Assembly: GCF_000003815.2 (NCBI RefSeq)
Contig: NC_049984.1
Location: 425,533 to 489,532 of the forward strand
Source of the DNA: Branchiostoma floridae
Lineage: Eukaryota > Chordata > Leptocardii > Amphioxiformes > Branchiostomatidae
Reading direction: 5' to 3'
Length of the DNA: 64,000 nt
Part shown: positions 518-63,927 of the stretch, piece after piece
Position numbering within the stretch: the stretch's first letter is position 1
Layout of the letters: each line of letters starts with the position of its first letter
Program-made: the position numbers and the translations under genes
The notes under the pieces: generated by a model
Databases searched by the model: none
What the model was told of the DNA's origin: nothing
Seen by the model: only the letters and a program-made list of their open reading frames with translations

Positions 518-3500
518 ATGGCTGCAGGTATGGGGCTAGAAGAATCAGGGTTTGAAAAGTCGTGGTGACACAAGCGTTTGGTATAGTAAAACCTACAAGA
601 CATAAATATAAATCAAACTGAAGTTAACTACGTACCTGATGTTGAGTAGCATTCCATTTTTCATTTACTAATTTTTAGCAAAACTACATTCATGTCACTT
701 CATGTTCATTGAAAGGAATCCCGCCACTTTTGCTTTATATTATTTATTATGAATTGGAACATGAGCAGGTATGATATGACAGCTTCCGCCTTACTATCAT
801 GGTGATTACAAAGTATTTACTTTGTGACCTTGTTCTTGACCCCAGAAAGGACGTTATAATCAGTTGCCACCTTTACTTTATGAGCTTGAGAAGGGATGGC
901 ATCTTTTACCTTACTATGGAAATTATCTACTTTGAGACCTTGTTGGTGACCCCAGGGAGGGTGTTGTAATTACTAGTATTTCGTCACGGCATGAAGTGTA
1001 ATTCACAAACATGCCGCAAAAAGGCGCCGTTGAACGCCAGCCGGTCCAAAGGTGCGGTCTGATCATATTGACCCGCCAGGCTGTGTTTACTTGTCACCAC
1101 AGTCCACCGCAAGATAGAATATATCTGATCGGTACAGTTGCAATAAATCCCATAACTTGTCACCTTTCTTTGTCAGCTCCAAAATAAAACGTACATATTT
1201 CATCAAATTCTTAAATATGTGAAAATAGTTTACAGCGTGAAAACTGGCAAAGGCATTGACGTATAACTAACAATGTTTGGATATATTAGAAGCTCAATAC
1301 AAATTGTGGTCCAGATATTGTAGGTACAGATATTTCTGATTTAACTTATACATGTATTTGCTGTGTAGAAGACCTTATAAAATCCCGGTATATCGTGACA
1401 ATTAAACAAATAGTTGATGCTGCTGAAAGCTATGTCAGGCGATTATGCTAAAATAATCCACTGCGCCTTTTCTGGTGTTTGCGGCTTTGATGAATGCAAT
1501 AAATATTTACATTTTCTACAAAACCTCATTCTCCACTGTTCCCCAGCAGGTTCTGAGGAGATGGACCTGTACACGTTCTGGAGGGCTGTGGAGAAGGGTG
1601 ACGAGCAAACTGTGAGGAGGGGGCTGCAGGCTGGGGTGGACGTCAATGTCACGACAGGATGGGTAAGCAAACTGATCTTCTCATGTAGCGTTCAAGCTTG
1701 ACGCTTTTGCCAGCAGAGCATGATGAACAACACTTTTATGGGAGCAAGGTGATTCTGCGCATGATGTAGTCAATGAAGCCTATCACGATGTCTTTAAAAT
1801 CTTGATATCTAAACTCATTTCTTCTAAAAACACTGTTGCTGTTTGTACAGCCGTCTATCGATACCTTCCAGGTGGCAAATGCTGACAAACGCTTTAAATT
1901 TACGTTTCGCCTCCTTGCGTCGTTAGACTTTCCCTTCAATCTTCGGACCAGTTTTGGCATCAGTTTTGGCATCTTATACGCCCAACGTGACAATAGCGTT
2001 GGTTTGTTATCATAGATACTTGTAGATACTCTCATTCTGTTTTAGGTGCGTGTATGTGTTCAAATTGTGCACGTGTACGGGGCGCTGAGCCAGAGGTAAA
2101 CAATAAAAGAATGAATGATTAATATGATATGAAAACAAACCTGTTTTTGTTGGTCAAATTCAATGTGTAATATTTGCTCTGAAGCGGGTTACGGGATAAG
2201 TGGAAATGACTGACCTTTTTCTTATGACGTGAACCATGTCAGTACGACTCGCGGTTCCCTTGTCACGATATCTTAGTCAGATATACATTGAAATGCCGTC
2301 TTGGTTTTTTGTTGCGCACAGAAATCTCAGCATTCATATATCAGGAGGAGCATCAAATCGTTTAGGAACGTCTTACAACGACGTCTAACCTCTCCCAGAT
2401 GGTCGATAAATTTTGTAGACTTCAGGAGGAATTCCTCCTCCACATGTGGGTCGATCTCTTTGACTGCGTCCAAGTAGCCTGGCCACCTCAGTACAGGGCA
2501 CTTCGGGCGGCACTTCTTCTTACACCAGCCGGATAGCTGCTTGGAGATTTTGACGCACAGTTTGGGCATCTGGCGCTGGTGCTGTGCAGGTTGAAATGGG
2601 AAAGAAACTATTTGTAAACCCTAACCTATTTCTTTGAAATTTTCCGTGGGAGCTGTGCACGTTGTAAATCACCGTGGTCAATGGTCAGTAATTTCAGATT
2701 TCGTCGGTGGATTACCCTGTATCATATAATATATGTTTGTATCCACACACTTACCTCTAACTTATCCTTCTTCATCGTGGCCAGCAGTTTCTTGAGTCGG
2801 TCCATGTCTGCTGTTCGGGTCTCCTTACAGTTCATCAGGAAGACTTCGTCTGAGATGTGGAGGTGATCTTTGAACTCTGACGCCATCAGCTGAAGAAGAC
2901 GAGCAGCCTGACGTTGTCCTGAGCGTTAAACGTGAACACGGAACGTCAATGTATGCCGTTTGCTCATTATGTTGATAACAGTTGAATTCCTGCTATGGCA
3001 AAACCATTCCTCCCTTTATTATTGTACAGCATGATTAATTTGTACAAAACTATTTCTCAGAAAAATAACCTACGCCCACACAGCTTCTCATCTTATTTAC
3101 CCCTGTCTCGCGACATTTTGTCCGCATGACTGGCCACTAAGATGACGTCAGGCTGTCGGTTTGGGTTGCAGGACTTGATAAAACTCAGCCACCAGTGGAC
3201 CTGGGGTGGAGCATGCGATTGTAAAAATACGTAAGGACTATATCGTGCTTTGACTTTAGACCGTAATGCAAATTAGAAAATTGCAATGTTTAGAAATAGT
3301 TTGCTGGGCCAATAAGGGTCCATGCAAAAGAAAATGAAACAATAAATTTACGTTGAACATAAATTTAAAAAAAAATCAGTTACCTGTCGTTCTTGGGTCT
3401 GGCTGTCGTCCATGATGTTGTACAGCACAATGAAGACGGTGTTCTCTGCATCCATGAACATACTGTGGGTTACCGCGTACTCCGCCTGCCCAGCGAAATC

Positions 3501-6500
3501 CCACAGGCTGACCTCCCCCACACCTGGAATATGGAACGTCCCAACATCCACCCCTGGGGTGGGGTCGTGAGGCTCCTCCTCTGACGACGGTTTACTCAGT
3601 CCTTGGAAAAATGCAGTCACGGGGCCCTGTTGGACAGGAGTTATTTAATTTTTAATCTTTGATGAAATCGCTCTGTGTGAGTAATCCAATATCTATTATT
3701 TCATAAACGTGACAAGAAAACCGTGAGTCGTCCACGTTTCTTCACCCATTCTTAGTCTCAGATAATGGTCGCAAACAAAACAGTTAGGTAAATAAAACAA
3801 CATTTTGCACATAAACCGGAAAGCCGTTTTTCGTCTTCTGCTTCAAGAAATGAAGTCAAACCTGTCTGGATATAGTTGACGTTAGTATTCGAGTAGTATC
3901 CTTTTACAATAATGTTAATCACTATCCATTGTCACTTGTATGTCCACAATTACCCTTCGGGTGCGGACTTGGAAATTAATTTTCCTTTCTAATAAAAAGT
4001 TTAAAAAGCGAAAGCAAATAGTTACTATTTTATTGTCATCGATGGAACCACTCTAAAACAGCCTTCTGAAATATCCGAAGAAGGAAATGCATTTGGAAAG
4101 TTTTATAAAATATCATAAAAGCTGACAACAGGGATGAACAACGATATCACTGTCCTCACGGTGCTCCATAGATGAACCTATACAGTACACAGTGTAATGT
4201 TTATGCTCATGACTGGGTATGGCGGGTGAACATGCTGCTTCTTATCCACGTGATGACTGTTGTCTGTGTTGAACCCGCCACTACTGACCCTGACCTTCCT
4301 CCCTGCACAGCGCCAGTCCACACCCTTGCATCGGGCTTCTACTGTGGGTCACACCGGGACTTGTGAGCTTCTGATTCGTCACGGGGCAGTCGTGAATGCC
4401 TGTGATGAGGTAATACACACTTAAGCTTGTTTCAAATATGACCATACAGATTACGTGGATGTTAACTTGATACTGATAATATACTGATTACATGTATTCA
4501 ATTTTGTATGTGCATTTATTAAAGGACGATACATTAACGGGTCAGCGGGGGAGCCAATACAAATGGAGGCTGCCCGCAGAGATCGATACAAAACACAAAC
4601 AGGCAAAAAGCACAATATGTAAGGTAGCAATATAAACAGGACCCTACAGATTACATGGATATGGGAATTTCTATTGATAGACTCCTTCTTACCCACGTGA
4701 TGACTGTTGTCCATGTTGAACCCCCGCAGCCATTATGACCCTGACCTTCCTCCCTGCACAGGGCCGGTCCACACCCCTGCATGTGGCTGCTCTCATGGGC
4801 CACACCGGGACTTGTGAGCTTCTGATTCGTCATGAGGCAGACGTGAATGCCTGTGATTGGGTAATACACACTTGTTTAAAATGTAACCCTTCAGATTACA
4901 TGGAAGTTAACTTGATACTACATGTAATATTACATTGTATACATTTATCCGAACTTGTATTTGTATTCATTAAAAGTGCGACGATACAATAACGGGTCAG
5001 TCGGGGAGCCGATACAGATGGCGGCTGTCCGCAGAGGTCCAGACAACAAGACAAACAGGCAAAAATACAGCATAAATAAAGATATCCAAGGTAACAATAT
5101 GAAACATAGTGTATATCTGGCATATAATCAAGACGTTTCAGGAGCTGTATAGCTGGTATCTAGAACTGTTTCTTACCCACATGATGACTGCTGTCCGTGC
5201 CGAACCCGCCACTACTGACCCTGACCTTCCTCCCTGTACAGGACCTGTCCACACCCCTGCATAAGGCTGCGGACCGGGGCCACACCGGGACTTGTGAGCT
5301 TCTGATTCGTCACGGGGCAGACGTCACGGCACGGGCTGTGGTAATACACACTTGTGTCAAATGTGACCCTTCAGATTACAAGAATGTTAACTTGATACTA
5401 ATATTACATTGACTACATATATTCCAACTTGTATTTGTATTTATTAAAAGTGCGACGATACCGTATAGGGTCAACCGAGGAGACCCTATTAGTGATGGCG
5501 GCTGCCCGCAGAGATGCTGACAAACAGGCAAAAAAAATCTATAAACAAATCTATGGTAACAATATAATATACAATATACAATATACAATATAAAATGGAT
5601 CCTGACGATTACATGGATATGGAAATGTATAATGATAGAGCCCTTCTAATCCACATGATGACTGCTGTCCGTGTTGAACCCGCCGCTACTGACCCTGACC
5701 TTCCTCCCTGTACAGGGTCAGTCCACACCCCTGCATCAGGCTGCACGCCGGGGCCACACCGGGACTTGTGAGCTTCTGATTTGTCATGGGGCAGACGTGA
5801 TGGCACGGGATGAGGTAATACACACTTGATTCAGATGGTCCCTATAGGTTATATTGATGATAAAAGTGTTTCCGAAGTCAAGGTTATTATCGACATCCGA
5901 TGATCATCAGTGTTTACATTTATATACTTACAATACAATGAATTACAAATGTGAATTGAAAATTGCGGAAATCGAAATTTCCGTCACCATTCTCCGTTTA
6001 ATTGTGGAATTACATACTTTAAGTAGCGGACCATGGTTAGCAGGTTTTAAAAGGACACATTCCGTTTACCAGTGCACGATAGTACAGTAATGTGCTAATT
6101 ACCTCCATGAAAAAATGGAGGTATAGTTTTGAGTGTGTCTGTGTGTGTGTGTGTTTGTGTGTGTGTCTGTGTGTCCGCATATTTGTGGTCATCATAACTT
6201 GAGAACCTCTTGATGGACTACGATGATATTTGGTATGTAGGTAGGGGTTGGGAAGACGAAGGTCAAGGTCAATTTTGGGCCCCCTGGTGTGTGGCCTTGG
6301 TACTGCAGCGCAACTTCCGGTGTTGCTATCTCGGTGTTCTGAACATGCTATGGTCAAGATTTTTAAGCATTAGATAGCTCTTGTGCTCAGGAAAAAATTA
6401 CGTAAGTTTGGGCCCCCTAGCGTCTAGTTTGGGAATAGCAGGGGCATTTTTGTCAAAAACTTCTGACGAGGATAACTCAAGAAGGGAACAACGGATTTTC

Positions 6501-24931: not shown

Positions 24932-27588
24932 TCACTTAAGGTTCATAAGGATGGGCATCCCCTGGCCCTCCTTGGGGGCCGGCCCGTGTCTCAGGTGGAA
25001 CTCTCGTCTCAAGAAGGCGTACAGGAGGTCTGTCAGGAGGAAGATCTGCAGGGGGTGGGATGGAGGAAGACGTCTTAAAGAATTGCTTTTCCAAGTAACA
25101 ACTTTCACACATTTGCACTAACATTGGTGCTGAATGACAGCCACACTGACACTGCCAGGCTGAGCGTGAATGTTATTCAGGGACACGGATGGCAGTGTCA
25201 TTGGGAAGGTCCCTGGTGCTGAATGATACTAACATGGACATTGCTGCAAATGTAATAACTTAGATGATGGTACTTCTGCAATAGATAAATGTTACTTAAA
25301 ACAGACAACAGATATTTATTCTTTTTTTTTCTATTTCAAGAAATTGAAAACGAATGTTCCCCCATGACCACCCATACCTGTGCTGTTGCGTACGCCAGCG
25401 TGACTGCGTAGAAGAAGTTAGCGTTCGCGCTGCCGTAGTAGATCCAGAGATGCCAGAGAACGGGAGCCAGCACGATGCTGTATAGCCACATGCACACCAC
25501 TAGGAACAGGTTTCTCATGTCTGTAACACACACATTTACACACATTACAGTATACACATTACTGTACAGTACACACATGTGATGATGTACAGCCACATGC
25601 ACACCAACCAAGAACAGGTTAATAGTGCCTGTAACACACACTTGTATAACTGTACCCTACACATGTCTGAAACATGACAGAATGTCTATCATATTTGTTT
25701 CTATAGCAGGTTTATGGTTTACTACGTGAAAAAGGCACAGCATATCAGCATTCCACTCTAGAAGGTTTAGAAACAAGGACCAACGGGAATTCAAGATGGG
25801 AAAACTTCAAATCTATGCTTTGCAAACTCCTTATACTCACACTTGAGACAGACCTTTAGGTCAACCAATCAGCAAAAGGTAGTATCAGATGGTTCCTTAT
25901 CAAGCACTGGGGTTCACAAATAATGAAGCAAATTCATTGCCTACATTTTTGCCTACCAGCTGCACAGTGGTGTATATAAGGAGTACTCACACTTGAAGCA
26001 GTGTCCCCACACCGGCAGCAGGGACAGGAACAGGGCTGCATCTCCGAACGTCGGGTAGGACTTAAACACTGCAGTCAGGCCCACTAACAGGTGCAGGTGG
26101 AACATGGGGTGGTCCCTATGGAAACACATTTACACTGTTCACACTCCTACAATTATTCATACTATTAAATTATGTCTTCCACATTTTCTACTTAAGAAAC
26201 TGCATGACTGATACACATTAGACATATCATCTCAAAATGGTCTAATTCTGATATTTTTCAAGTAGAATGTAAAATATTCTTTATGCTTCCTGTGTTCCTA
26301 CCTGAGTTTGATGGCGAGGGGAATGACGTAGAAGACTGCGTTGAGCTGAAACACGCAGAGGAAGAAGATGCAGAAATGTTCGAACATCTCAGTGAAGAAG
26401 TACCAGAAGAGGCCCATGTTGGGGGTCAAGTCGGGGGCCAGCATCCTGGAGGAGGGTGGAGGAAAAACACTTGTAAACACCTGTATATCAGGACTTATCA
26501 TGTCACCTGATACATGGATACACAAAGCTTAATGGCTGAACAACGTTTGTAGGGGAGAATTTTATTGGGTACGATAGATATCATGCAGGTATGCAATCTA
26601 TTGGAAATATTCCCATAATCATGTTTATTGTAAGCTCAGCTGGCATATCAAGCTAAAAGCTACTTAACATAGCATAAAGGTTAGAGAAAAACAGATAAAA
26701 GGTAAAAGATAAAAAAATAAGAAATACAGTTGTGCATACGGGAAAAAATTTGAAGGTTTATAACATTGAAAATTTTTGTTCTGACAATGTTGTCCCACAG
26801 TTAAATCATGTATCCTCAGGCCTTCCCATGACCAAACAGACACACTAGACAAATCTTTAGCACTCACACAAACCCCACAGTGGCCAAACAGACACAAACC
26901 CCACAGTACCCAAACAGAGACTAGACACTCACACAAACCCCACAGTACCCAAACAGAGACTAGACACTCACACAAACCCCACAGTACCCAAACAGAGACT
27001 AGACACTCACACAAACCCCACAGTGGCCAAACAGAGACGAGACACTCACACAAACCCCACAGTACCCAAACAGATACTAGGCACTCACACAAACCCCACA
27101 GTACCCAAACAGATACTAGACACTCACACAAACCCCACAGTACCCAAACAGAGACTAGACACTCACACAAACCCCACAGTACCCAAACAGAGACTAGACA
27201 CTCACACAAACCCCACAGTACCCAAACAGAGACTAGACACTCACACAAACCCCACAGTGGCCAAACAGATACTAGACACTCACACAAACCCCACAGTACC
27301 CAAACAGATACTAGGCACTCACACAAACCCCACAGTACCCAAACAGAGACTAGACACTCACACAAACCCAACAGTACCCAAAAAGAGACTAGACACTCAC
27401 ACAAACCCCACAGTACCCAAACAGAGACTAGACACTCACACAAACCCCACAGTGGCGGAGAGAAAATCCCAGGACAGGAAACAGAGGAAGGACAGGAACA
27501 GCAGAGAGGACAGCCAGAGGGCGTAGGACAGCAAGGTGTGCAGGACAGAGGTGACGTAGTCTTCATCAGGGTGCAGCTGCTGTTCCTT
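24932..27588 (-). CDS. PIGU: PIG-U, GPI transamidase subunit (3' half only)
   Basis: Five minus-strand exons in order: 27588-27440, 26445-26302, 26115-25991, 25520-25378, 25045-24932 (stop TGA). Phases join perfectly into 224 aa. PIG-U signatures include [69 protein letters not shown] and [19 protein letters not shown] is a multi-pass ER membrane subunit of the complex (with PIGK, PIGT, PIGS, GPAA1) that attaches GPI anchors. The family is about 430 aa, so the first half is missing. No upstream exon was found between 27589 and 30900. Either this is a truncated duplicate or the 5' exons lie elsewhere. Confidence 0.9.
26866..27456. repeat. 39-bp minisatellite carrying the PIGU splice donor
   Basis: About 15 units of GACACTCACACAAACCCCAC plus AGTACCCAAACAGAGACTA. 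Read on the minus strand each unit has GGGGTTTGTGTGAGTGTC, which is the exact end and donor of the PIGU exon 27588-27440. The long open frames seen across it, on both strands, are an artefact of 39 being divisible by 3. Confidence 0.9.
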
Positions 27589-27780
27589 CTAGACATACAG
27601 GTAAGAACATAAGGTAGAGAGGACAGGTGATGGACAGGTGAGGTAGTCTTCCTTAGATTTCACTTCCTGTCCCTTCTAGACACAGAGGTAAGAAAGGAAC
27701 ATAAGGTAGAGAGGACAGGTGAGGTGGTCATCCTTAGTCTGGATAGGGTTCTTCTCTTCTAGACACACAGGTAAGATGTA
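27589..27780. repeat. Short tandem copies upstream of the PIGU exon
   Basis: Three related segments share CCTTCTAGACA..CAGGTAAGA and ATAAGGTAGAGAGGACAGGT. They repeat the acceptor side of the PIGU exon (CCTTCTAGAC at 27584-27593). Confidence 0.5.
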
Positions 27781-50114: not shown

Positions 50115-51324
50115 AGGTGTTCGTCCAACATACTGGATATCCTCGAGGTTCTGCATTCAACCCCGCCGACTGAGGTGCCTATGTTTGCCTCGGTAAAGCT
50201 TCATCTCCCAGCTGTTGATCTGACCAACCTTGACGTGTCCCTGTGTCTGCAGGAAGTCAGGATGGTTAGACAAGAGATGGCTGTTATACGGGAGGTCTCG
50301 CAGGACAACTTCAGGCTCAGATCGGAATACGCTAAAACCATGGCGGACAACGCCCGATCGGTCGCGAACCTGGAATCTGAGCTTGCCTCACTCAGAGCTT
50401 CTTCGCGACAACAAATCTGATCACACGAAGGACGTCCAGAACAGATGCGTAGGATCTGTGCTAAGCCAGGATAAGTCGGCACTTGTGCTAAGCCAGGATA
50501 AGTCGGCACCTCCTCCTCCGACCCCTCGCTTAGTATGTAAACAGCGCCAGCTAACTGTAGTCCCGACAAGAACAACAAGATTGGCTTCCTCGCCTGCCAG
50601 GCCCAGTGTTACTGACGACAACAGCGGCTTTACGCGTCGTCGACGCGGCAAGGCCATCGTCGGTAGGGCGTCCAACAAAGGATCCCTCGTAGTGGCGAAA
50701 CCCCGACCTGTTGAGGTGTTTGTGTCGAGACTCAGTGTGGAAACATCCGCTGAATCCTTGACCCAGTTTGTACACGACAACGAGATGGAGCTTGTAGACT
50801 GTGAGAAACTGGAGACGCGTTTCAACTCCTATGCATCCTTCAAGCTGGTGATTGGAAAAGCCGACTCTGACAAGATCTTGTTACCGGAATTTTGGCCCAG
50901 TGGTATCCTGGTAAGGAAATTCTACCAAAGAACTGCCCCTCGTGATAACTAATGGATAAAAATCAAGGACAGTTGACTTCAGTGAACGTTGTGTCTTACA
51001 ACTGCCGATCGCTCAAAAACTCTGTTCAAGTTGTAAAAGACATTTGTAACACTGCTGACATTGTCCTACTGCAGGAACACTGGTTACTACCGCATGACTT
51101 GCATCTTTTATCTGAACTTGATGCTGATTTTTCAGCTTATGGTACCTCCCCCGTTAACACGGAAGAGGGTTTTCTTCAAGGTCGCCCATATGGCGGTGTA
51201 GCTGTCCTCTGGAGGCAGAACATTGGTCTAGAGGTCAGTATCGAGAGTTGCGATGAGGATCGTATTTTAGCTGCTATTGTTACCTTTGCCAGAATGGCTA
51301 AGGTTATGTTTTGGGCTTGTGAGT

Positions 51325-51368
<44 letters not shown>

Positions 51369-54300
51369 ACAGCATAACTCGAGAAGCCTTGGATGGATCC
51401 CGATGATATTTGGTAGGTAGGTAGGGGTCGGGAAAACGAAGGTCAAGTTCGATAATGGGCCCCCTAGTGGCTTGCTAAGGTACTGCAGCGGAAACTCAAT
51501 TTTTTATATCTCATGTTCTGGACATGCTGTGGTCATGATTTTTGAGAGGTAGATAGCCCTTGGGGCAGAGAGTACGTGCTGTAAGTCTGGGCCCCCTAGC
51601 GGCTTGTTTGGAACTGCAGCCGCCGATTTCCTTTCATACTTTGGATGAGAATAACTCGAGAACGTGTAAATGGATCGTCATGATTTTTGGTATGTAGATA
51701 GCCCAAGTAATAATGTTCATAATGAGATACTAATTATGCAAATCAACAGCTAATTTGCATACTTAATGAGGAAAGTTTATAAATCAACTGCATTTCATGA
51801 TAGGACTTTCAAACTTGTCACATATATAGATGAGAAGGAGAGAAATATCATTGCATATTCATTATGCAAATGAGGGCCTCATTTGCATAATTAATGAGAA
51901 AATAGGAACATCTTGACGGATCGTCATGACTTTTGGTATGGTTCCGGGTCGGAGTTTAAATCTGACCGGAGTTGGCGTAAGGATGTAGTAATAGGCCGGA
52001 AGTGCGGTTTGGTTTCCTATGTTTTGGTGCCGATTTCCATAAAACCGTTATAGCTGTATATGAATCTTTTTATTTTCTGAAAAGCATGTTGGTTGTAGCA
52101 TTTGTTGGTGGCGTAATGTTGATCGTGCAGCGAAGACTTTGTGCTACTATTTCGTGCCATCGGCAATGTGACCTTTTCGCCTGATGACCCGGATCGTGCG
52201 TTCTATGTGCGCCATGGGTGGGTTGGGGTCATCGTAGATTGCGGAAAAGTTATCACATGGAATTTTTTCATTTTCATTTTTCAGATTTATGAAGTAATGA
52301 GCTTTATTGGTTTGTAGGCGGTTTCCCTGGGAAAATTCGTTTTTTTCGCGCAGCCGTGTTTAGAAAATGCGTAAAAATAACCCCCTTTTTCAAAAAGTTA
52401 CTTCTTTCGTCATTATTCACCCAAAATTGTGTAGCAATATTAACCATGAAATCAGTGAATCACGAAGCTGCATAACACCACTTTCCATCAGAGTAATGAA
52501 AAATTTCGGCCCATGTTCCTTTGGGAAGTCACAGTCCTTTCGGCCGAGGGTGTCAGACTTGCTACGAAATCAGAAAAAAAACTCCGGTCCGAGACCGTAT
52601 GTAGATAGCCTAAGTACAAACTTACATAATGAGATACTAAGTATGCAAATTAACAGCTAATTTGCATAATTAATGAGGAAAGTTGATAAATCCTCTGCAT
52701 TCCGTGATAGCACTTTCAAACTTGTCACATATGTAACTGAGAAAGATGGCAGAGAGTAAGAGGTGTATGTTTGGGTCCGCTAACGTCTTTTCTTGAACTG
52801 CAGGAGCCGGTTTAGTTTCCTACTTTGAGAGGAATAAGTCAAGAAGGGATGAAAGGATCATCATGATTTTTGGTATGCTGATAGCTTAAGTGATGCTTGA
52901 TACAATTCAATATTATTGTGTAAATAGGGACCTTTGTACATGTATAAGCAATGGCAAAATGTTATGAACCAACTCCAGGCATATAAAATAAAATGTAATG
53001 AGTAACACATTTATGTCTACAGACATCATTCTACATAACAAACCTGGTTTATTTGGCAAAGGTATGTGTTCGTGGAACTCTAGTTAAGTCTGGAGACAGA
53101 CAAATGCGTCTAGTGTGTTTTTACATGCCAACCGACTGTGTCAATCATGTTGATCTGTTTATGGAAAATCTTGGTAAGATTGAGGCACTTTCAAATGATC
53201 TAGGTATCTCTAACATCTGTATCATGGGTGACTTTAATACCCGTCCTGACGGGCGGTTTGCCCCTATGCTGTATGAATTTTGTCAGGACAACAACCTCCA
53301 TGTCAGCGACGCTGAGTTGCTTCCCAGTGACACATTTACGTACCTTAGTGACGCTCATGGGACAACATCTTGGTTGGACCATTGCGTCTGTTCCGAAACT
53401 ATGCATAACAGCATCTCTAACATGAAGGTTGATCATGGCTTCCTGTCGTCCGATCACTTTCCACTGCAAGTATAGTTCCACTGGGAGCCATTGTTTGTAA
53501 ACACAGCTGAGAATCCACCTATGAATGTTAATACCCGCCTCACATTATATACGATCTTCGGACGTACATCGCGATCGCAGGAAGGTCGGCTGATTTTAAG
53601 ATCTTAAGATGGTCTTGCGTATTTTTCGCCCAAAATCTGTCCCCCTCACATACAAACGAGCCTCGTGCGATCGACGGTGAATAAATCTATGATAATGAAC
53701 CTCCCATGACCTCTTGCACGCGGACAAGGAAACACAAAACGTTCCTCAAAAAAGGCAAGAGATCAAAAAATGTTGCTTATTTTGTTGTCGGACGCGCTTG
53801 CCATGCATCTTCATCAGGGGGGCTGCAAGAGTTTTTGGAATGCTCTGCGTTCGCAAAACCACTCCAAGCCTAATCTTCCCAACACGGTTGATGGTTACAC
53901 AGGGGCTTCAGAAATTGCCAATATGTGGAAAAACCACTACATTTCCCTGTTTAACTCGGTTAATTCCACTAATCACAAGCCATCTGTTCTGCATGCAATG
54001 GAATCCGATGTTAGCGATGTAACCACGGTAACAGTAGGAGAGGTATGTGATGCTATCAATGACCTACTCAATGGGAAGGCTAGACGTGCAGGGCATTTCA
54101 GCTGAGCATCTTAAAAATGCCGGGCCCCAACTACCCGTTCTGCTTTCTATTTTAATCTCTTCTATGCTTAGACACGCCTTTGTGCCACCTAACATTCTGA
54201 ACGTTGTGCTTGTCCCTATATTGAAGAAGCCCAGCTGTAATGCTTCAAACAAGGACAACTACCGTCCTCTCGCAATAGCTAGCCCCTTGTTAAAAGTCAT

Positions 54301-55774
54301 TGAATCTGTACTATTAAAACGCCTTGAAGATTTCTTATTCTCCCCGAGCAACCAGTTCGGATTTAAGAAGAGGCATGGTACCGATCTATGTATATTTGCC
54401 CTCAAAGAAATTATTCAGTATTATCGACAAAGGGGCTCTCCTGTATTCGCATGTTTTCTGGACACTTCCAAGGCGTTTGATCGTGTAAACCACTGGACAT
54501 TGTTCAAGAAACTTATGGATCGTGGGGTTCCGATGTACCTAGTTAGATTCCTGGTCGTGTGGTATAGCACGTTGTCCTTCTGTGTCCGTTGGGGCCACAC
54601 CCTTTCGGATACGTTTACTGCTATGAATGGCTTGCCTCAAGGCAGCATATTGTCACCCATCTTGTTCAATGTGTATGTATCTGATTTGAGTACCGAGCTG
54701 CTGAGGTCCGGTGTGGGTTGCTATGTAGGTGACACCTTAGTCAACCACTTGATGTACGCGGATGATATTTGCCTCGTCTGTCCGTCTGCTAAAGCGTTGC
54801 AGAAACTGATCAGTATTTGTGAGCTCTTTGGAGCGGATATTGACATGGTGTTTAATGAATTGAAAACACTATGTATGTATTTCCCGTGTCGCCGCTTCCG
54901 CATGAGTATGTCACTGCCGCCGCTGATGCTGTACGGTACCGCCTTAAAGTATGTCCCTTCTACCACGTATCTTGGGTATATAATTACCTCTGATCTTTCG
55001 GATGACGCAGCAATCCGAGCTCATGTCAGAGGCTTTTATTCTCGGGCAAATTCGCTCCTCCGACGGTTCCGTTACTGCTCAGCGGCGGTAAAAAGTGAGT
55101 TGTTCTCAGCGTATTGCTCCCAGATGTATTGTGCTCAAATCTGGAGTAATTACAGCGTGAGTGCTATCTCAAAGCTACGAGTGGCGTACCACAGCGCATT
55201 GAAACTGCTCTTTTCGGTCGGCAGGCATACAAGCACAAGTTAGTTGTTTGTGAATAACCGTACCGACATGTTTGACGCAAGGCGTCGCAAGGTCACCTAT
55301 TCATTTGTAACACGCTTGCTGTCGTCTGACAATGATATAATCCGAGTGCTTGTACACTCGGACGGCTTTTGCCTTAGCACATTCTGGCGACACTATGTAA
55401 ATAACAGTAATAAGTGTAGCTTTTTAAATCTTTGTACTGTGCCTGCTTTTATGGGCCACGGGCCTGATACAAATAAATAAATAATATCACGAAACATAGA
55501 TAGGAATGTGAATGTCTGATGAACCGCCTTGCCGAAATAGCGGAGCCGAAAACTGTTTTTGATAAAGTTTTGGGTGGGCAATCTTTAAATAACACGGTAC
55601 ACAGTTGTGTAGTACTCAAGCTCAATGGCTTATGTGATATGATTTAATGTACGTTACAGAAACATGTAGCGTGACATTTACATTGACACACAAAATAACA
55701 CGTATCTATGTTTTCTCCCTGTACAGAATGGGAAGACTCCATTAGATGTAGCTAGAGACCCGCGTGTCCTGAAG
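46540..55774 (+). CDS. Gene D: ankyrin exons, likely 5' part of a D/E fusion
   Basis: Exons 46540-46652 (cap, [20 protein letters not shown]), 47892-47990, 48165-48263 and 48659-48757 (three 99-bp ankyrin repeats) and 55727-55774 (half repeat [16 protein letters not shown]). All are open and phase-compatible. The DAPK-type ROC-COR exons found in genes A-C do not follow. The 7-kb intron before the half repeat holds a LINE. The next coding exons belong to gene E. Either gene D is a dead fragment, or it supplies the ankyrin part of gene E through the candidate exon 56013-56043. The usual start codon is lost; the exon-2 ATG could be used. Confidence 0.65.
48758..50150. other. Non-coding stretch with microsatellites
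   Basis: No recognised gene. (AT)n runs at 49911-49969 and 50042-50112 flank about 70 bp whose complement starts GGGACCGCGTGGCGCAGTGG, a tRNA-type A box, so a tRNA-derived SINE fragment is likely. Open frames made of IY repeats are artefacts of (AT)n. Confidence 0.6.
51304..53050. mobile_element. Repeat inserted in the LINE endonuclease
   Basis: Related to the repeat at 6103-7190: (GT)n at 51328-51366, GATGATATTTGGTAGGTAGG, GGGCCCCCTAG and ATGAGATACTAATTATGCAA. The LINE frame breaks after MAKV (GGCTAAGGTTATGT) and resumes with GGCAAAGGTATGT, a likely diverged 12-13-bp target duplication. Confidence 0.65.
51941..52597. mobile_element. 657-bp TIR element nested in the repeat
   Basis: Ends GTTCCGGGTCGGAGTTT and AAACTCCGGTCCGAGACCG are inverted. 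The host repeat sequence TTTTGGTATG|TAGATAGC is split with TATG on both sides (51937-51940 and 52598-52601). No transposase ORF was seen. Confidence 0.65.
54047..55243 (+). CDS. LINE reverse transcriptase (ORF2 fragment)
   Basis: A 398-aa open frame covering RT blocks: the substrate motif [34 protein letters not shown] and the catalytic YADD box at about residues 240-243. It continues in another frame to 55480. It resembles CR1/jockey-type RT; the clade is not assigned. Confidence 0.85.
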   Translation: MMLSMTYSMGRLDVQGISAEHLKNAGPQLPVLLSILISSMLRHAFVPPNILNVVLVPILKKPSCNASNKDNYRPLAIASPLLKVIESVLLKRLEDFLFSPSNQFGFKKRHGTDLCIFALKEIIQYYRQRGSPVFACFLDTSKAFDRVNHWTLFKKLMDRGVPMYLVRFLVVWYSTLSFCVRWGHTLSDTFTAMNGLPQGSILSPILFNVYVSDLSTELLRSGVGCYVGDTLVNHLMYADDICLVCPSAKALQKLISICELFGADIDMVFNELKTLCMYFPCRRFRMSMSLPPLMLYGTALKYVPSTTYLGYIITSDLSDDAAIRAHVRGFYSRANSLLRRFRYCSAAVKSELFSAYCSQMYCAQIWSNYSVSAISKLRVAYHSALKLLFSVGRHTSTS

Positions 55775-55979
55775 GTGTGCAACGTCCTTTTTGAGTCATG
55801 ACATGGGTCTTACAATTACTTCTGAGGGTTGTGTTTTACATTAAAAACATTGGTAGTTTCATTGTTGTTATACTAAAGACATCGATAACATTGTCTGCAT
55901 CTCTCACTTATGGAGGGACTAACGTTTCTCGTGTGAACGGCCGACATCCCAACTTTGTTTACTTTCATTTCCTTCTGGA

Positions 55980-56495: not shown

Positions 56496-58503
56496 GTGAC
56501 GCTGACGTGCCCGTTGAGATTCTTCTACGAGGGCCGGAGATGGCCAGGTTGTACTCTGAAGCCTGCAGTCAGGGGTCGCTGCCCATGCACAGCACACGGG
56601 TTCCGGTGGTGGGTCAGTACAGGTCGGGCAAAACCTGCCTAATCAAGAGGCTGATGGGAGAAACGGTCAGGAAGGAGGAGGAGGAACCCATCACGGATGG
56701 AATCGACATCATTTCCGATGTGCAAACCAAGACATGGAAGAAGTCACCAGGTTTGTAAACCATGTTCGTCCTGTCTCTGATGAAGTCTTCCCTCCATATT
56801 CATTATATCCCTTGTATTCATCATAATGTTTCAGATAATCGAGATATTGATTCTGCTCCACTCATTTCACTTTACAGAGGAGATAGATGAGTTAGCAGGA
56901 CCGTTGCTCCAGAAAGAGACCACAACAGGTGATACTTCCTAAAATGGTAAAGTCAGTGCTGCTTTTGTCTTGAAAGAAATGACTTTCAAAGCTAAATGCT
57001 TTCGGTAATTTAGTGATGAACGTTTATTTTGTGTCTTTTGACAGAGACCAAGCATGAGACCTCACTGTCACAACAGGAAGCAACAAAGACACCAATACAG
57101 GCATCGGAAGGTGAGTTCATAAGTACAAGAGGTGTCAATTACTTTCAAGTTGGTAGGTATCAAGTCAATTCAGTACCAGGACACCTCGACCCCTAACGGA
57201 TCAGTACGTTTCGACACCTTAGTAATTACATTACATTTACATATATATCAAAAGATTTTTCATCAACGGCTAACGAAATGCCTGTCCCAACATAAAAAAA
57301 ACTAGTGTTCTTAACTGTCAGCCATGCGTTTCATTTCTCAAAATCAAAATAACGAAATCAAACATAGCGTAAAGAATGAAGTAATACGCTTGGCTTCCAA
57401 AAAAGAATGGGCTCCAAATGCGTAGGTTTTAGAACGGGGCTTGGCGGCTGGATCATCAAAACGTACTAAGACGACAGGTTTTTACCAAGTCATCCAGCGG
57501 CGCTATCTATTTCGTTTTTCCGAGTATACAAAAAAATCTATGTGGGGAGGGACGCGCGCTACCCGAGTCATCGACGTGTTTTATGTCTCTCGATCAATCG
57601 AAAAAGTTTTATCCAATAGCTAGCGTTCTCAATTACAAAACCTATACTACATTAGAAGTTATTCAGAATCGATTTCAGGTGGAAAGAAATTATATGACAT
57701 GTATGATGGTTTTCACTTGAATAGTAAAAACTGTGTTCATTTACTTATTTTTTCCGTCCATAAATTTTTACCATGGTCACAGCACACTATTGCACTCTTT
57801 GCAGGGCCGGAAAAGGATCATGAGGAACAAACCGAGCCAGACCGTCCAAGCAACGAGTATAACAAGCAATCTGGGACAGAATTTCCAAGCGAGGAGCATC
57901 AGGATAAAACTCAACCAGAGTTGCCAAACAACGAGCAGCCTAACATCGCGGATACAAGGTCGAATGTCACCTCAGAGAAACACCATACCGTTGTCATTCC
58001 AGACAACGTGCGTGAATCTGCAGAGAGGATGCGCAATGCGGGTATTACTGAGGAAGAGCTTGGCACTGCTACACATCCGCGTCTGTCCTTCTGGGATTTC
58101 GGCGGCCAGGCGACTTACTACGGGACCCACCAGTGCTTCATCACCCACCTGGGAGTCTACATTCTCGTCATGTCTCTACTGCAGAAACTGTCGGACAATG
58201 TTCCGGATCTGGACTACAAGGCATCGGTGGACAACTTGAGAACGGGAGGAGGTACGTCCTGAATACCCGTTTGCTTTAAAATCACCCATCGTCCGCAAGA
58301 TACTTCGTAGACATCACGATTCTAGTAATAAAAGTAGTGTAGTAAAACACTTTTTAACACTGATTCTGTAAAAGCGTACCATTATTGTTGTTTCCACAGA
58401 CTACCTGGACCACTGGCTCAACTCTATTTACTCTCAAACTCAGCAACACAAAGTACAACCTCCAGCCATAATTGTCCTCACGCACAAGGACATGGTTTCT
58501 GAG
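56496..58503 (+). CDS. Gene E ROC GTPase exons with inserted linker
   Basis: 56496-56750 holds VPVVGQYRSGKTCLIKRLMG (P-loop) and TDGIDI (switch I). 56878-56928, 57045-57110 and the start of 57805-58251 encode a polar, Glu/Gln/Pro/Asn-rich linker. 57805-58251 then gives HPRLSFWDFGGQATYYGTHQ (switch II). 58400-58503 has IIVLTHKDMVSE, the guanine-recognition THKD. The distance from switch I to switch II is about 150 residues, far longer than in a normal Ras-like fold. Confidence 0.85.
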
Positions 58504-61471
58504 GTGCGTTTATTTTTGTTTTCACAGGGAAAACAGTCTCTTTCCCGTTACTACAGTATTAATTGCAAACAAATATATTGGTATTCTAGAGAATTACATT
58601 AAGAATCACAAACAATAGATTATGAGCTATATCGTAGGGGGCAAACAGTGGGTGAACACATTTTGCTGCAATTATTGTTGTAGTTGCAAACAAAATTTAG
58701 ATTATTTGTGTTCTACAGGAATACATTGAGAAATATAAAGAGGAGATACGGAGTCATATCGAGGGAAAAGCGGCAGGAAGGTTGGTCATGCCAGACATTT
58801 TTGCAGTGGACAACACAACAGAGGACGCAGCTGTTGATGAGATCCGTGAGTACATACGGCAGGTGGCGAGAAGCCTGCCGCACATGGGAGAGAAAATCCC
58901 CATCTCGTGGCTGCATCTCAAGTCTAGACTGACCAAAAGGCGGGAGCAGGGGAAAAAGTTCCTCAAGTTCCATGAGATAGTGCAGCTTGCCCAAGATCTT
59001 GACATCAACATCAAAGACAAACGCACCCTCGCCACTGTTCTCACCTTCTTCCATGACCGAGGTGACATCATCTTCTTTGACGAACCCGGTCTCCGTGATG
59101 ACGTCACCCTACAGCCACAGGTGATGATCGACACCTTTAAGACCATCATCACAGTACCTGAGTATCAGCAGGACAGACAGGATCCGAAGGTGAAGAAGAT
59201 GTGGGAGAGACTGGAACGAGAAGGAGTCCTCAGCGATGAGTTGCTGACAAGGATCTGGAAAGAGAGGGATCGACAGCTGGAAGAGAAAGGCAAGAAACCA
59301 TTTCTGATCCAACACAAGTCCTTCCTGACGGTGCTCATGGAGAAGTTCTATCTCATCTGTAACGCCACACCCATCAGCGATACGAGCGAGGAAGCCCAGG
59401 AGGAAGAGATCCGGTATTTCGTTCCCGCACTTCTCAGCTGCAAGAGGGGTGACGCCGAGCTGTATCCCGGCAACATGCATAAATGTCCTCAGGCGCTCTA
59501 CTTCGTGTTCAGCGAGAAGTTTCTACCCAGCGGCATGTTCTGCCGTCTACAAGCCTTGTGTGTGCGCAGATTTGGCCTGAAAGAGTCACGCGTATTTACC
59601 GGCTGTGCTCGCTTCCCTACAGACAAAGAGGAGGAAACATTCGTCATCACCAAAGTCAACCACTACTTGAAGGTGGAGCTTCTGTCGTCCTCTGAAATCT
59701 TCACAGAAGGCCTGCGCGTTAGGAAGTTCCTCAGTAGCGCCTTGTTTGAGATCAAAGAGAAGTGGATCCCCTGTATCCAGTACGAGCTCAAGTTCTGCTC
59801 TACACAAACAGAGGAAGGAAGTGAACCGGCATTCCAGGGATTGCCAACAGGTGACGGGCCAGTGGAACAAGATTCAAGGTAAGGTGGATCTATGGATCTA
59901 CTGATCTACGCCACCTTTGTCCATTTACATTTGGACAATTGTGTAGATTCATGTCATGTCATCTTTTGAGTCCATACTTCAAGCAGACAAAAGCTCTAAA
60001 TCAGCAACACTGTAATGGAAAGAAATATCTTCAGCACGGTACATTTTGACTTGCAATAAGCGAAGAATAACTGATTCCATGCACAGTTTTCCTTTTTCAG
60101 AGTACCATCTGCGTTTCGCGACGTTTGGATGACTGGTATCTCGCAAACACATCGGACAGGTAATTCTATTCATTAGGTTACATACTGTACAAGGCGTAAG
60201 GAATATGCTTCTACTATTTCTGCCTATGACAATCACAAAATCTATGTTGGAAATTTTGCATAATGACCTACTGAATTGTAATGTGAACTGGTCAATGAGT
60301 ATAGCTTTCTTTCGACTAACCACACAACACTCGTTGGCACGCTTCACACCTCAACTATTTGCTCCTAATCCCAATTGCTGTTTGACGCTAACAGAGGTAG
60401 ATTTGAATATGCACCTTCTTTGTATTCATACAACGGTACAACATGTATTCATTTGATGCTATTCCTTCAAGATATCTGAAATCTAAATTGCACAGAAAAC
60501 TCAGGAGGGGACGGCCCAGTGATTCTTCAGCCAACGGATGACCCCAGCAACATGCGAACGATCGGCCCCGTGTTGGACACGATGGAGCTGGGGAGAGGAT
60601 TGTCGCTGGACCAGTGTGACAATACTAGGAGCCGGCTGACGCCGAAAGAGCGGGTCAAGAACCTGGTGAGCCTAGTAGAAAACCGTTACCAGCTGGGAGC
60701 CGCGGTGGAGATGTGCTATCCAGAGTTTGCAGATTGCTTCTTGAGGGAGGAACGAGGTAGGTTGTTATTGATCATGGACACGGAGAAAACCTGCAAATGC
60801 TGCATTTCATTAATCTCAACCTAATCTTGTTTACTTGCTTAAAAACAGTAGAATAGAAACCAATAACAACCACAAAGGAATATATGTACTTTACTGGCTT
60901 GACGATGATGCAGATAAAACTATTCATATACCTAAATCCTTCAATATAGGCTTTGTGGATACTTTTTGGTCATTGATCACTTTATTCCTTTCAGGAAAAG
61001 AGCTTGTCATTCTCCACACAAAGGACTACACAGAAGAGTTCGCCTCACCTCTCCGAACAGCCGTTTCTGAAGCCGGTGTATCCTGTCACACAGAGAACGT
61101 CCTGCCGACTGTATCAATTACAGAGAAAGTAATTGAAATCCTCCTCAACACAAACAACAGGATGGTTCTCCTGGTCATCAGTCCCCAGGCTCTACATCAC
61201 AATCACTGGTCAAACCTCGCCTACGAGTTCCCAGTTCGGAACGAGAAGCTCCTGCTGCCCATCCTGCTGTACCCACCGGGCTCCAGGGACTGGATGGTCC
61301 GGGTTCTCCAGCAGCGGGCCCCTGTGCTGTGCAAACTGACATCGATGGAGATGGAGATGGAGGGAATGACGGTATCAGAGGACAGACTGCAGGAAATCGT
61401 ACAGAAGGTACTTACGCGTGGAATACAAATGCTTCTTTTCATTGCGGATTTTACCCCAAATAAAGCCTGTG

Positions 61472-61510
<39 letters not shown>

Positions 61511-63927
61511 AGCTTTTCTCACATGCCTCTAAACTCATGACATCTTTTTGCGTCTATTGTAGGTCATGACCGACGAAGAAAGAGGTGAGTTCATATAACC
61601 ACAACATAAGCACATTGTTACATTGGTTTATGTGTTCAATCCATGAACTCTAAAATACATGACTGGGTCTTCTGCACTTTAGAACACGCTGAATTGTGCA
61701 TTTTAGACATACTACATGTGGAAAATCTGGCTTAAAGCAAACATACAATTACGAGGAATGGTAAACGTTATATGGCCGCATTTATCTTAATTGTGTTGAT
61801 TTATTGGATGGACAGTAAATAAATTAGCATTGTGCATAACGTGACATAACCATCATGGCGATTCCTGCAGGTTTTCATCAGATGTTGGAAAGCATTTTCA
61901 GTCGGCTGGACGATGGAGATGTGCGGCTTCTTCTGCGCCTGTGGTCTGCACGTACCGGTAAACAGGAGCGTACAAAGATCGAGACACCAGGAGACTTGAT
62001 GAAGGCTATGTTGAGGACTGGGTACATCACAACTGGTACGAGGAATTTCCTTTTTTACACTTGATGTACTAATTGCAGAAATGTGTGAAAATGCTACACG
62101 TCTGACTTATGCTTCGTACACGCGTACTCGATCTCTGTCGAGTTTTGGTTGTGTTTTTGGTTGTGTTTTTAGTCGTCGAATTATGTTTAAAAAATGTATA
62201 ACTTTTCCAGGCAATCTCGGAATGCTGGAGAAGGACATGATTGCGGCTGGGATCAGCCTTCCTGTTATTGTGCGAGACATTCCAGGTAGGTGTCAACCTT
62301 ATCAGAAAAATTCTGCCGTAGGAGTCTGAGAGAAGTGTTGTTCTTGAATGAAGGTAACTGAATAAGAAAGAAAAATGAAAAGTGCAATTTTACCAAGCTA
62401 GCTGCAACTACTAACCAATGTCTGATGATTACGTATATATCTGTATAGTCCAACGCCAACAACGGTCTTTGGCGTTGTGGGAATAATTAATTCTCTTTAT
62501 GATTTACGACAAGTAGTTTCAGGCAGAACAAAGTGCGTTGTATGTTCAAACTTAATATAAAACATAAAAGAGATCTGGTTCTCCGATGAGCTCTATGTGG
62601 CGCTCTGCATCTGGAACATTGGAACCTTAGACTCTTGTCTGCAAGTTTGTAACTCATTAAAGTTTAAAAGTTTGGGGCACTCGTGAGGTAGTCCCGTTGC
62701 TTGGACAAATTTCGTACCATTTGATATTCGCTTTCAAACATCGTTAATCTCAATGCCAATATCTTAGGTGCACCCGAGGAGCTGAAGTACAGAAGAACAG
62801 CAAAGTTAGCAGTGGGACCCATGGGAGGAGAAGTGGAGATTCCTGGTTTTGTCAAACTTGTTGTACCAGCAGACATCCTTCATCGAGACACAATGATAAC
62901 CATCTCTACTGTAGATGTTGCTGCTATCCTAAGGGATCCTGAGAGTGTAAACTGGCTCTCCGGCTACCCCTGGTCCCTGGGTGAGGACGCCTGTCCACGT
63001 GAGCTACTGGATCAGGTGCAGTTCTCCCCAGCTGTCGATGTCAACCTACACGGCGCACGGTTGAATCGGCCAGTGGAGTTACAAACGTGGCGACCTCCAG
63101 GTTCTGAAGGCATGGATTGTATTCTTCTGAAGAATCATGATGGGGAAGGCTGGACAGATATCACAGCTTCAACAGTGCACCATGTACATCCGGATAAAGT
63201 ATGCATGCTTTTGCAGACCTTCAGTCCTATGGTTACTGGGTGGGCTCCTTTGGACGCGGTGATCTCAGCAGGCATGATGATGGTTGGTGCCTTATCATCA
63301 AGAACTTTGGACTGTCAGTTTGCAGCGTACATAAATCCCAGTCTAGAGGATGTGCAATTCCACGTTGTCTGTAGAGATCAGCGTGTCAAGACAGATGAGT
63401 ACCTTCCAGGTTTCACCAAGTGCGGAAACAATGCAGCTATGTTCGATCTTTTCCATGGGGATGTACTTGACATTGCTGTTAATGTTCGGGGAGGACAGGG
63501 AGCGTGTACACAGATGATACTACGTTCCAAGCATTGCTGTGACAAAAATGGCCAGAACGTTCAAGTTTTGCTGGACAGACCAAATGGAAACCGCGTCAAA
63601 GGAGATGTGACCATCACGGAAGCTCACGGGTTGTCAGAGCGGACTCGGACAGCATGTCAGTTCATCTTCAAAGAGGTAAGGTGTGATCTGAGCAGTATTT
63701 TCAGTCTGTCGAAACTAAAAGCCTACAACCACAGAAAGTCCAAAAGTGCGTATGATTTTGTAAAAATGTGTCATACCTGCAAAACCATAAGATTTTAAGC
63801 ACAAAATTGATGAGCAAGTTATAGTTTCAAACAACAACATTTCGACATTGCCGTGTTACTACCATCTTATTCATCAAATGATGCATCTGAACCTATTTTC
63901 CCTTTCAGGAAGGTGATATCTTCCAAA
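56496..63927 (+). CDS. Gene E: ROC-COR-CARD-TIR-DED-ZU5-UPA protein (3' end beyond window)
   Basis: Exons: 56496-56750, 56878-56928, 57045-57110, 57805-58251, 58400-58503, 58719-59878, 60101-60159, 60496-60756, 60995-61407, 61563-61584, 61871-62035, 62211-62285, 62768-63675, 63909-63927. All joins keep the frame (4005 nt, about 1335 aa) and the last exon ends in phase 1 at GTGAGT, so more follows. Domains in order: ROC with P-loop GQYRSGKT and switch II WDFGGQATY, COR, CARD-like, TIR-like, DED-like, ZU5, UPA. The ROC-COR is of the MFHAS1/LRRK kind, unlike the DAPK kind in genes A-C. The first exon starts inside a split codon, so upstream exons exist. ZU5-UPA in PIDD and UNC5 is followed by a Death domain, which may lie just outside. 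Confidence 0.88.
58719..59878 (+). CDS. Gene E COR domain exon
   Basis: 1160 bp, phase 0 to 2. IPISWLHLKSRL, then LATVLTFFHDRGDIIFF and LQPQVMIDTFKTII are the classical start of COR in MFHAS1/LRRK-type ROCO proteins. Later blocks include YFVPALLSCKRGDAELYPGN and PQALYFVFSEKFLPSGMFCR. Confidence 0.9.
60496..60756 (+). CDS. Gene E CARD-like exon
   Basis: 261 bp, phase 1-1. NMRTIGPVLDTMELGRGLSL and DQCDNTRSRLTPKERVKNLV line up with the gene B CARD (VEPILDHLQARDILTVEECD, SIRANRTPRDKARELL), including the TP..K.R.L segment. A diverged death-fold domain, best called CARD-like. Confidence 0.65.
60995..61407 (+). CDS. Gene E TIR-like domain exon
   Basis: 413 bp, phase 1 to 0. It opens ELVILHTKDYTEEFASPLRT, with later VLLVISPQALHHNHWSNLAY then EF, and LLLPILLYPPG. 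This follows the alternating strand/helix order of TIR domains and box-3-like S...W...E. The canonical box 1 is weak and the W-to-E spacing is longer than in WCxxE, so SEFIR is an alternative. Confidence 0.6.
61472..61509. repeat. (GATT)n microsatellite
   Basis: About nine GATT units in the intron after the TIR-like exon. Confidence 0.9.
61563..61584 (+). CDS. Gene E 22-nt microexon
   Basis: TTGTAG|GTCATGACCGACGAAGAAAG AG|GTGAGT encodes VMTDEER plus one base. It is needed to change phase from 0 (end of the TIR exon) to 1 (start of the DED exon). Confidence 0.7.
61871..62285 (+). CDS. Gene E DED-like domain exons
   Basis: Two exons, 61871-62035 and 62211-62285. FHQMLESIFSRLDDGDVRLL, then KIETPGDLMKAMLRTGYITT and GNLGMLEKDMIAAGISLPVI match the helix pattern of death effector domains (D-L-...-L...G.I...NL..L...). 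The intron falls before the fifth helix. Confidence 0.65.
62768..63675 (+). CDS. Gene E ZU5-UPA exon
   Basis: 908 bp, phase 1 to 0. ZU5: KLAVGPMGGEVEIPGFVKLV, VPADILHRDTMITIS, VQFSPAVDVNLHGARLNRPV. UPA follows from about ISAGMMMVGALSSRTLDC and DVQFHVVCRDQRVKTDEYLP to GDVTITEAHGLSERTR. ZU5-UPA modules occur in ankyrins, UNC5, PIDD and ZO-1 relatives and usually precede a Death domain. Confidence 0.85.
63909..63927 (+). CDS. Gene E last visible exon
   Basis: 19 nt, EGDIFQ plus one base, after CCCTTTCAG and before GTGAGT. Phase 1 out; the gene continues beyond 64000. Confidence 0.65.

Follow-up and report, generated by a model that had tools for sequence, protein, structure and literature searches.

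The window analyzed here, a stretch of 64,000 nucleotides from Branchiostoma floridae (contig NC_049984.1, positions 425,533 to 489,532, forward strand), holds several neighboring ROCO GTPase genes and, from position 56496 onward, a further gene that continues into the adjoining downstream stretch (L002). By its tested features, the product of this gene is a member of the ROCO GTPase family with an apparently new architecture. Specifically, the locus can be read with moderate confidence as one gene for a cytosolic ROCO GTPase scaffold, in which a single messenger RNA would encode ROC-COR, then modules of CARD-like, TIR-like and DED type, possibly ZU5-UPA, and finally a Death domain.

Between 56496 and 63927, 14 exons were re-derived from the DNA, each preceded by AG and followed by GT, and together they provide 1334 full codons with no stop. 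This bears out the proposal of the initial annotation that the 14 exons join without a frame break, save for a count of 1335 codons given there. Reading on into L002, exons O and P stay in frame and end at a TAA, which extends the model to 16 exons, 1470 residues and 15 introns, all with GT and AG ends; two polyadenylation-type hexamers follow the end of the gene at about positions 1985 and 2051 of L002. Short introns separate the exons between COR and Death, measuring 155-482 base pairs within the window and then 404 and 715 base pairs. Exons F (386 codons) and M (302 codons) are long and open, which, alongside the Roc and COR-A scores, makes the gene model more than a chance assembly. Its exons, all on the + strand, are as follows:

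Exon A, 56496..56750, +: start of ROC with the P-loop GQYRSGKT (taken by itself, Roc 23.2 bits against a cut-off of 27)
Exon B, 56878..56928, +: linker within ROC (splice ends and frame)
Exon C, 57045..57110, +: linker within ROC (splice ends and frame)
Exon D, 57805..58251, +: ROC with the switch motif DFGGQ (Roc 27.1 bits against a cut-off of 27, with a few intron-derived residues included in front)
Exon E, 58400..58503, +: ROC with the THKD motif (splice ends and frame)
Exon F, 58719..59878, +: end of ROC and COR (COR-A 51.3 bits, residues 368-546)
Exon G, 60101..60159, +: linker (59 nucleotides, in frame)
Exon H, 60496..60756, +: CARD-like domain, phase 1-1 (matches a CARD in the gene at 22-23 kb)
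Exon I, 60995..61407, +: TIR-like domain with Ala replacing Glu at W+4 (TIR_2, Foldseek and comparison with the L002 TIR)
Exon J, 61563..61584, +: end of the TIR-like module (splice ends and frame)
Exon K, 61871..62035, +: DED, part one (PF01335)
Exon L, 62211..62285, +: DED, part two (PF01335)
Exon M, 62768..63675, +: possible ZU5 and UPA (ZU5 score below cut-off)
Exon N, 63909..63927, +: short exon (splice ends and frame)
Exon O, window-equivalent 64332-64493 (L002), +: linker beyond the window (frame kept)
Exon P, window-equivalent 65209-65456 (L002), +: Death domain and TAA, beyond the window (PF00531)

The two ends of this protein are firmly assigned, and the ROC, COR and Death labels are certain. 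In the 1334-residue product, Pfam recognizes Roc at 44.4 bits (cut-off 27) and, straight after it, COR-A (cut-off 35.3), and the GTP-binding motifs GQYRSGKT, DFGGQ and THKD are all present in the translation. Searched against the PDB, exon F retrieves Roco-type chains with a best E of 2e-15, LRRK2 following at 1.2e-4. The Death domain that the initial annotation expected past the window's end is indeed found in exon P, where PF00531 scores 59.2 bits (cut-off 22.6, E 4.4e-16), and it is 53.7-55.3% identical to four Death exons in the neighboring cluster. No kinase and no LRR appear among the Pfam matches of the 1334 residues, which are counted from a provisional 5' end.

The modules between these ends required finer comparison. 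The profile search that the initial annotation had proposed for the spliced product had a mixed outcome, in that ROC and COR exceeded their cut-offs, but DED stayed below its own and TIR and CARD were missed on the full pieces; an NCBIfam search, furthermore, found no family among the three pieces submitted. Additionally, five pieces were compared with six targets, mostly domains of neighboring genes, using 1000 shuffles each. Exon H matched an accepted CARD (Pfam, 67.2 bits), that of the ROCO gene at 22-23 kb, with a z of 10.5 reached by none of 1000 shuffles, and it follows COR in the same position as in that gene. Against the CARD in L002, the z was only 0.2 (398/1000 shuffles), Pfam gave no CARD match for exon H as a full or a trimmed piece, and a sequence search of the PDB returned no match. 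Exon H is thus called CARD-like because of the missing Pfam match, and its sequence makes it very probably a CARD. Exons K and L match PF01335 at 29.5 bits (cut-off 35.9, E 9e-7) over positions 1-62 of the 82-position profile, and the only relevant PDB chain found by phmmer was FADD (E 1.1), outranked by an unrelated F-box protein (E 0.058); on sequence, the identification of this module as a DED is nearly assured.

The TIR-like module in exons I and J is indicated by three weak-to-moderate lines of evidence. The full piece yields no TIR in Pfam, only a chance-like match to Retro_M, and it was after subsequent trimming that exon I reached 17.4 bits for TIR_2, below the cut-off of 28 (E 0.0066). 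The initial annotation had named a failure of profiles to find the TIR and DED folds as grounds for abandoning its reading, and for TIR this applies to the full piece, the trimmed one giving the match below cut-off. Homology provides the second line, since exon I matches the TIR in L002 with a z of 11.6 (0/1000 shuffles). That TIR is an accepted domain (TIR_2, 39.4 bits), although Pfam does not list it when its first strand is excluded and gives this score with the strand included. Third, a Foldseek search with a low-confidence structure model of exon I returned TIR in all of the top five rows; by sequence, the PDB gave no relevant match for the piece, only four chance-like ones. A chance origin of the TIR and CARD labels was rejected, as the matching pairs (CARD, z 10.5; TIR, 11.6; Death, 34.3) stood out from the highest of the other pairs (DED/Death, 3.8; ZU5/ZO-1, 3.2; Death/TIR, 2.1; ZU5/UNC5B, 1.6). 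Of the initial labels CARD-like, TIR-like and DED-like, the last is therefore clear and the other two are homologous to accepted domains of neighbors, but all three remain under the Pfam cut-offs.

The same comparison speaks to the function of the TIR-like domain. In a gap-free aligned stretch after the Trp, the W+4 residue is Ala in exon I and Glu in the L002 TIR. A Glu in this position is the catalytic residue expected of TIRs that cleave nicotinamide adenine dinucleotide (NAD), such as SARM1 and AbTir. Because it is absent here, the domain is read as an adaptor, the enzyme reading was rejected, and cleavage of NAD by this TIR appears unlikely from its sequence.

For the ZU5-UPA module, the evidence is suggestive. 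UNC5, PIDD1 and ankyrins share the C-terminal order ZU5-UPA-Death, and in exon M the ZU5 landmarks GG..IPG.V.L.VP and SP.V....G....RPV.L are in register with UNC5B. It is these landmarks, together with the place before a Death domain, that make exons M and N a likely ZU5-UPA. The module is nevertheless weaker than the initial annotation had it, as no curated cut-off is reached: Pfam scores ZU5 in exon M at 13.5 bits (cut-off 21) and gives no match for UPA, and the single-sequence structure model has a predicted local distance difference test score (pLDDT) of 31.9. In an HHalign comparison with UNC5B, the probability was 1.35%, and 3 of 100 shuffles reached the score of 20.55, the controls scoring 12.1 (reversed sequence) and 12.7-13.9 (three other parts of the protein). 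In the shuffle comparison, exon M reached its z of 3.2 with ZO-1 (12/1000 shuffles) and of 1.6 with UNC5B (81/1000), and a sequence search of the PDB with ZU5-UPA-Death matched only the Death part, besides two unrelated phage chains. A TFSP stretch, which lacks a His, lies approximately where the HFS autoproteolysis site would sit.

The intron phases add an evolutionary dimension to this architecture. CARD is a 1-1 module, as are TIR, DED and ZU5-UPA (two exons each) and the linker, and Death begins in phase 1, so that all six intron boundaries around these units are in phase 1. Exon shuffling typically draws on modules of class 1-1, and the pattern is suggestive of such a process. The gene would probably have arisen by addition of phase-1 exon modules (TIR, DED and ZU5-UPA) to a gene of the ROC-COR-CARD-Death type.

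The neighborhood contains a tandem cluster of ROC-COR genes. COR occurs at 9504, 22390 and 38297 in the window and, as a fourth copy, at 5218 in the neighboring stretch L003; relative to the copy at 22390, COR identity ranges from 89.7% to 99.6%, the highest value being that of the L003 copy. At two of these four places, the open frame of COR also includes a CARD. Consecutive pairs of Death exons follow COR 9504 (11279 and 12810) and COR 38297 (40174 and 41708), the pairs being alike between the two places, and none was found after COR 22390. The neighbors thus share with the gene ROC-COR, a CARD at two of four places and Death exons of the same type at two, but differ from it in giving no match to TIR, DED or ZU5-UPA. 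A search of L002 to L024 (E up to 1) likewise revealed no second TIR-DED-ZU5-UPA set, but only the L002 TIR and the ROC and CARD of L003, besides the gene's own end in L002. A ROC fragment on the minus strand at 3453-3512 points to a possible inverted copy within the cluster. Downstream, at 5028-5888 of L002, the next gene starts with CARD-TIR, seemingly followed by degenerate LRRs (by eye), and at 26785-27612 of the window lies a minisatellite in which more than one frame stays open and whose repeat unit is about 13 residues long.

Ank-like exons also lie in front of the COR copies in the window (by eye; their joining to the neighbors is putative), and Ankyrin exons were considered as an N terminus of the gene at 56496. 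Of the four Ankyrin pieces at 46.4-48.8 kb, three exceed the Pfam Ank cut-off. Neither these nor the Ank-like exon at 55729-55801 were added to the gene model, because the latter runs into a stop and its sole phase-1 donor looks poor by eye; an ATTAAA follows at 55840. A separate short gene may therefore account for the Ank exons at 46.4-55.8 kb. Between them and the first ROC exon, at about 50224-55480, open reading frames resemble a retroelement without long terminal repeats (reverse transcriptase with YADD; by eye).

Several observations weigh against a single gene of this composition. The profile matches of the CARD-like, TIR-like and DED modules, missing or below cut-off as described, count among them, as does the weak match of ZU5-UPA. 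Within the gene, five of the remaining nine introns are also in phase 1, which leaves the phase pattern with a p of 0.09, and polyadenylation hexamers lie in four introns (58327, 61459, 61818 and 62656). The relation to the cluster is also looser than its COR copies suggest: a neighbor's COR finds no match in the gene's ROC-COR at an E of 0.01, the neighboring ROC matches that of the gene over only 19-30 residues (E 0.002-0.004), and the CARD-bearing gene at 22-23 kb gave no Death match. Finally, if the intron after exon F is retained, its frame runs into a TAA directly at the donor (59880-59882), and an in-frame ATG stands at 60552, before the CARD-like domain; both allow for two genes.

Among the alternative accounts, one gene with alternative splicing fares best. 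Here, the phase 1-1 modules (CARD; TIR; DED; ZU5-UPA) would be used in varied combinations and the full protein would be one isoform. Since the length of every module is divisible by three and its borders are in phase 1, each could be skipped without a frame shift, but such symmetry is merely permissive. This account is possible, if clearly the less probable one, and as it is compatible with a single gene encoding the full protein, the odds of the two overlap. Two adjacent genes are a more doubtful proposition, in which a ROC-COR protein would end within the intron that follows exon F, with a separate CARD-TIR-DED-ZU5-UPA-Death adaptor starting from the ATG at 60552. While the stop at the donor and the ATG speak for such a division, exons F and H are only 617 base pairs apart, with consensus splice ends and a 59-nucleotide in-frame exon between them, the + strand holds no AATAAA or ATTAAA between 59878 and 60496, and at the two neighboring COR places noted above, a single frame leads from COR to CARD. 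The remaining account, a locally duplicated copy in decay that is expressed weakly if at all, would be in keeping with the young COR copies nearby, the retroelement-like stretch at about 50.2-55.4 kb and the enrichment of Death and DED among dispensable lancelet genes, which are expressed less (PMC12373286). It is improbable, given that no stop interrupts the 1470 codons and that the ends of all 15 introns are intact.

Read as a single gene, the locus can be placed among published ROCO proteins, in each case as far as the passages covered extend. The initial annotation had contrasted it with ROCO proteins that carry a kinase, LRRs or one Death domain, which is too narrow, as publications describe TIR in some ROCO proteins and both CARD and Death in others, and two of the four neighboring COR places carry CARD. 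In Aplysia, ROC-COR is joined to TIR in proteins of TLR-like and MyD88-like type and in one other TIR protein, some with Death, which is among the domain labels of figure 6; unlike the amphioxus protein, these have LRR, Mbt, EF-hand or NHR, and no CARD, DED or ZU5-UPA is named in those passages (PMC9334734). In Trichoplax, as in the amphioxus gene, ROC-COR occurs together with CARD, Death and further domains, but no TIR, DED or ZU5 is named there, and Chondrus has a TPR-ROCO-TIR protein (PMC11378527). A review uses LRR, kinase and Death to divide up the family (PMC6337361). Of the family's members, DAPK1, LRRK1/2 and MFHAS1 share ROC-COR, and DAPK1 also Death. In contrast to these, the 1334 amphioxus residues have several adaptor domains in place of a kinase or LRR match. 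UNC5, PIDD1 and ankyrins would share the C-terminal ZU5-UPA-Death order, if ZU5-UPA is right, but in the amphioxus gene this module is weakly matched and joined to ROC-COR and other adaptors. UPA-ZU5 has also been described joined to TRADD-N proteins (PMC8195603). The full domain set is not named in the passages covered, including those of PMC6321704, PMC7159879 and PMC9573974, and protein databases might nonetheless contain an annotation of it. Combinations of TIR, DED, CARD and Death have been described in lancelets before (PMC2575513), and B. floridae is described as the eukaryote with the most novel domain combinations (PMC12373286), so the surprise lies in this particular combination and its modular introns rather than in the principle.

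The available data are compatible with a model in which, by analogy to Roco proteins, the GTPase cycle of ROC-COR would set whether the protein is open and dimeric. In the open state, CARD, TIR and DED could collect like partners by like-with-like contact, and the TIR-like domain, lacking the glutamate expected for NAD cleavage, would act as a docking surface. ZU5-UPA, in turn, might hold Death in check until a trigger releases it, in the manner of UNC5. We infer an immune role for the protein, and by analogy it is reasonable to consider it one switch linking DED/CARD and TIR signaling. A more far-reaching idea, which must be regarded as speculative and rather unlikely, is that a single polypeptide serves as a GTP-gated hub able to recruit partners of the CARD, TIR, DED and Death types simultaneously, performing alone the work of the separate inflammasome, Myddosome and FADD-type adaptors of vertebrates, and that its phase-1 modules let the animal reprogram this hub by exon shuffling or splicing.

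Compared with the sorting by LRR, kinase and Death in one review (PMC6337361), the gene would widen the known range of ROCO architecture. If it is expressed as read, four adaptor types that belong to separate pathways in vertebrates would stand behind one GTPase, and the control of death-fold and TIR assembly by a ROCO switch would become directly testable.

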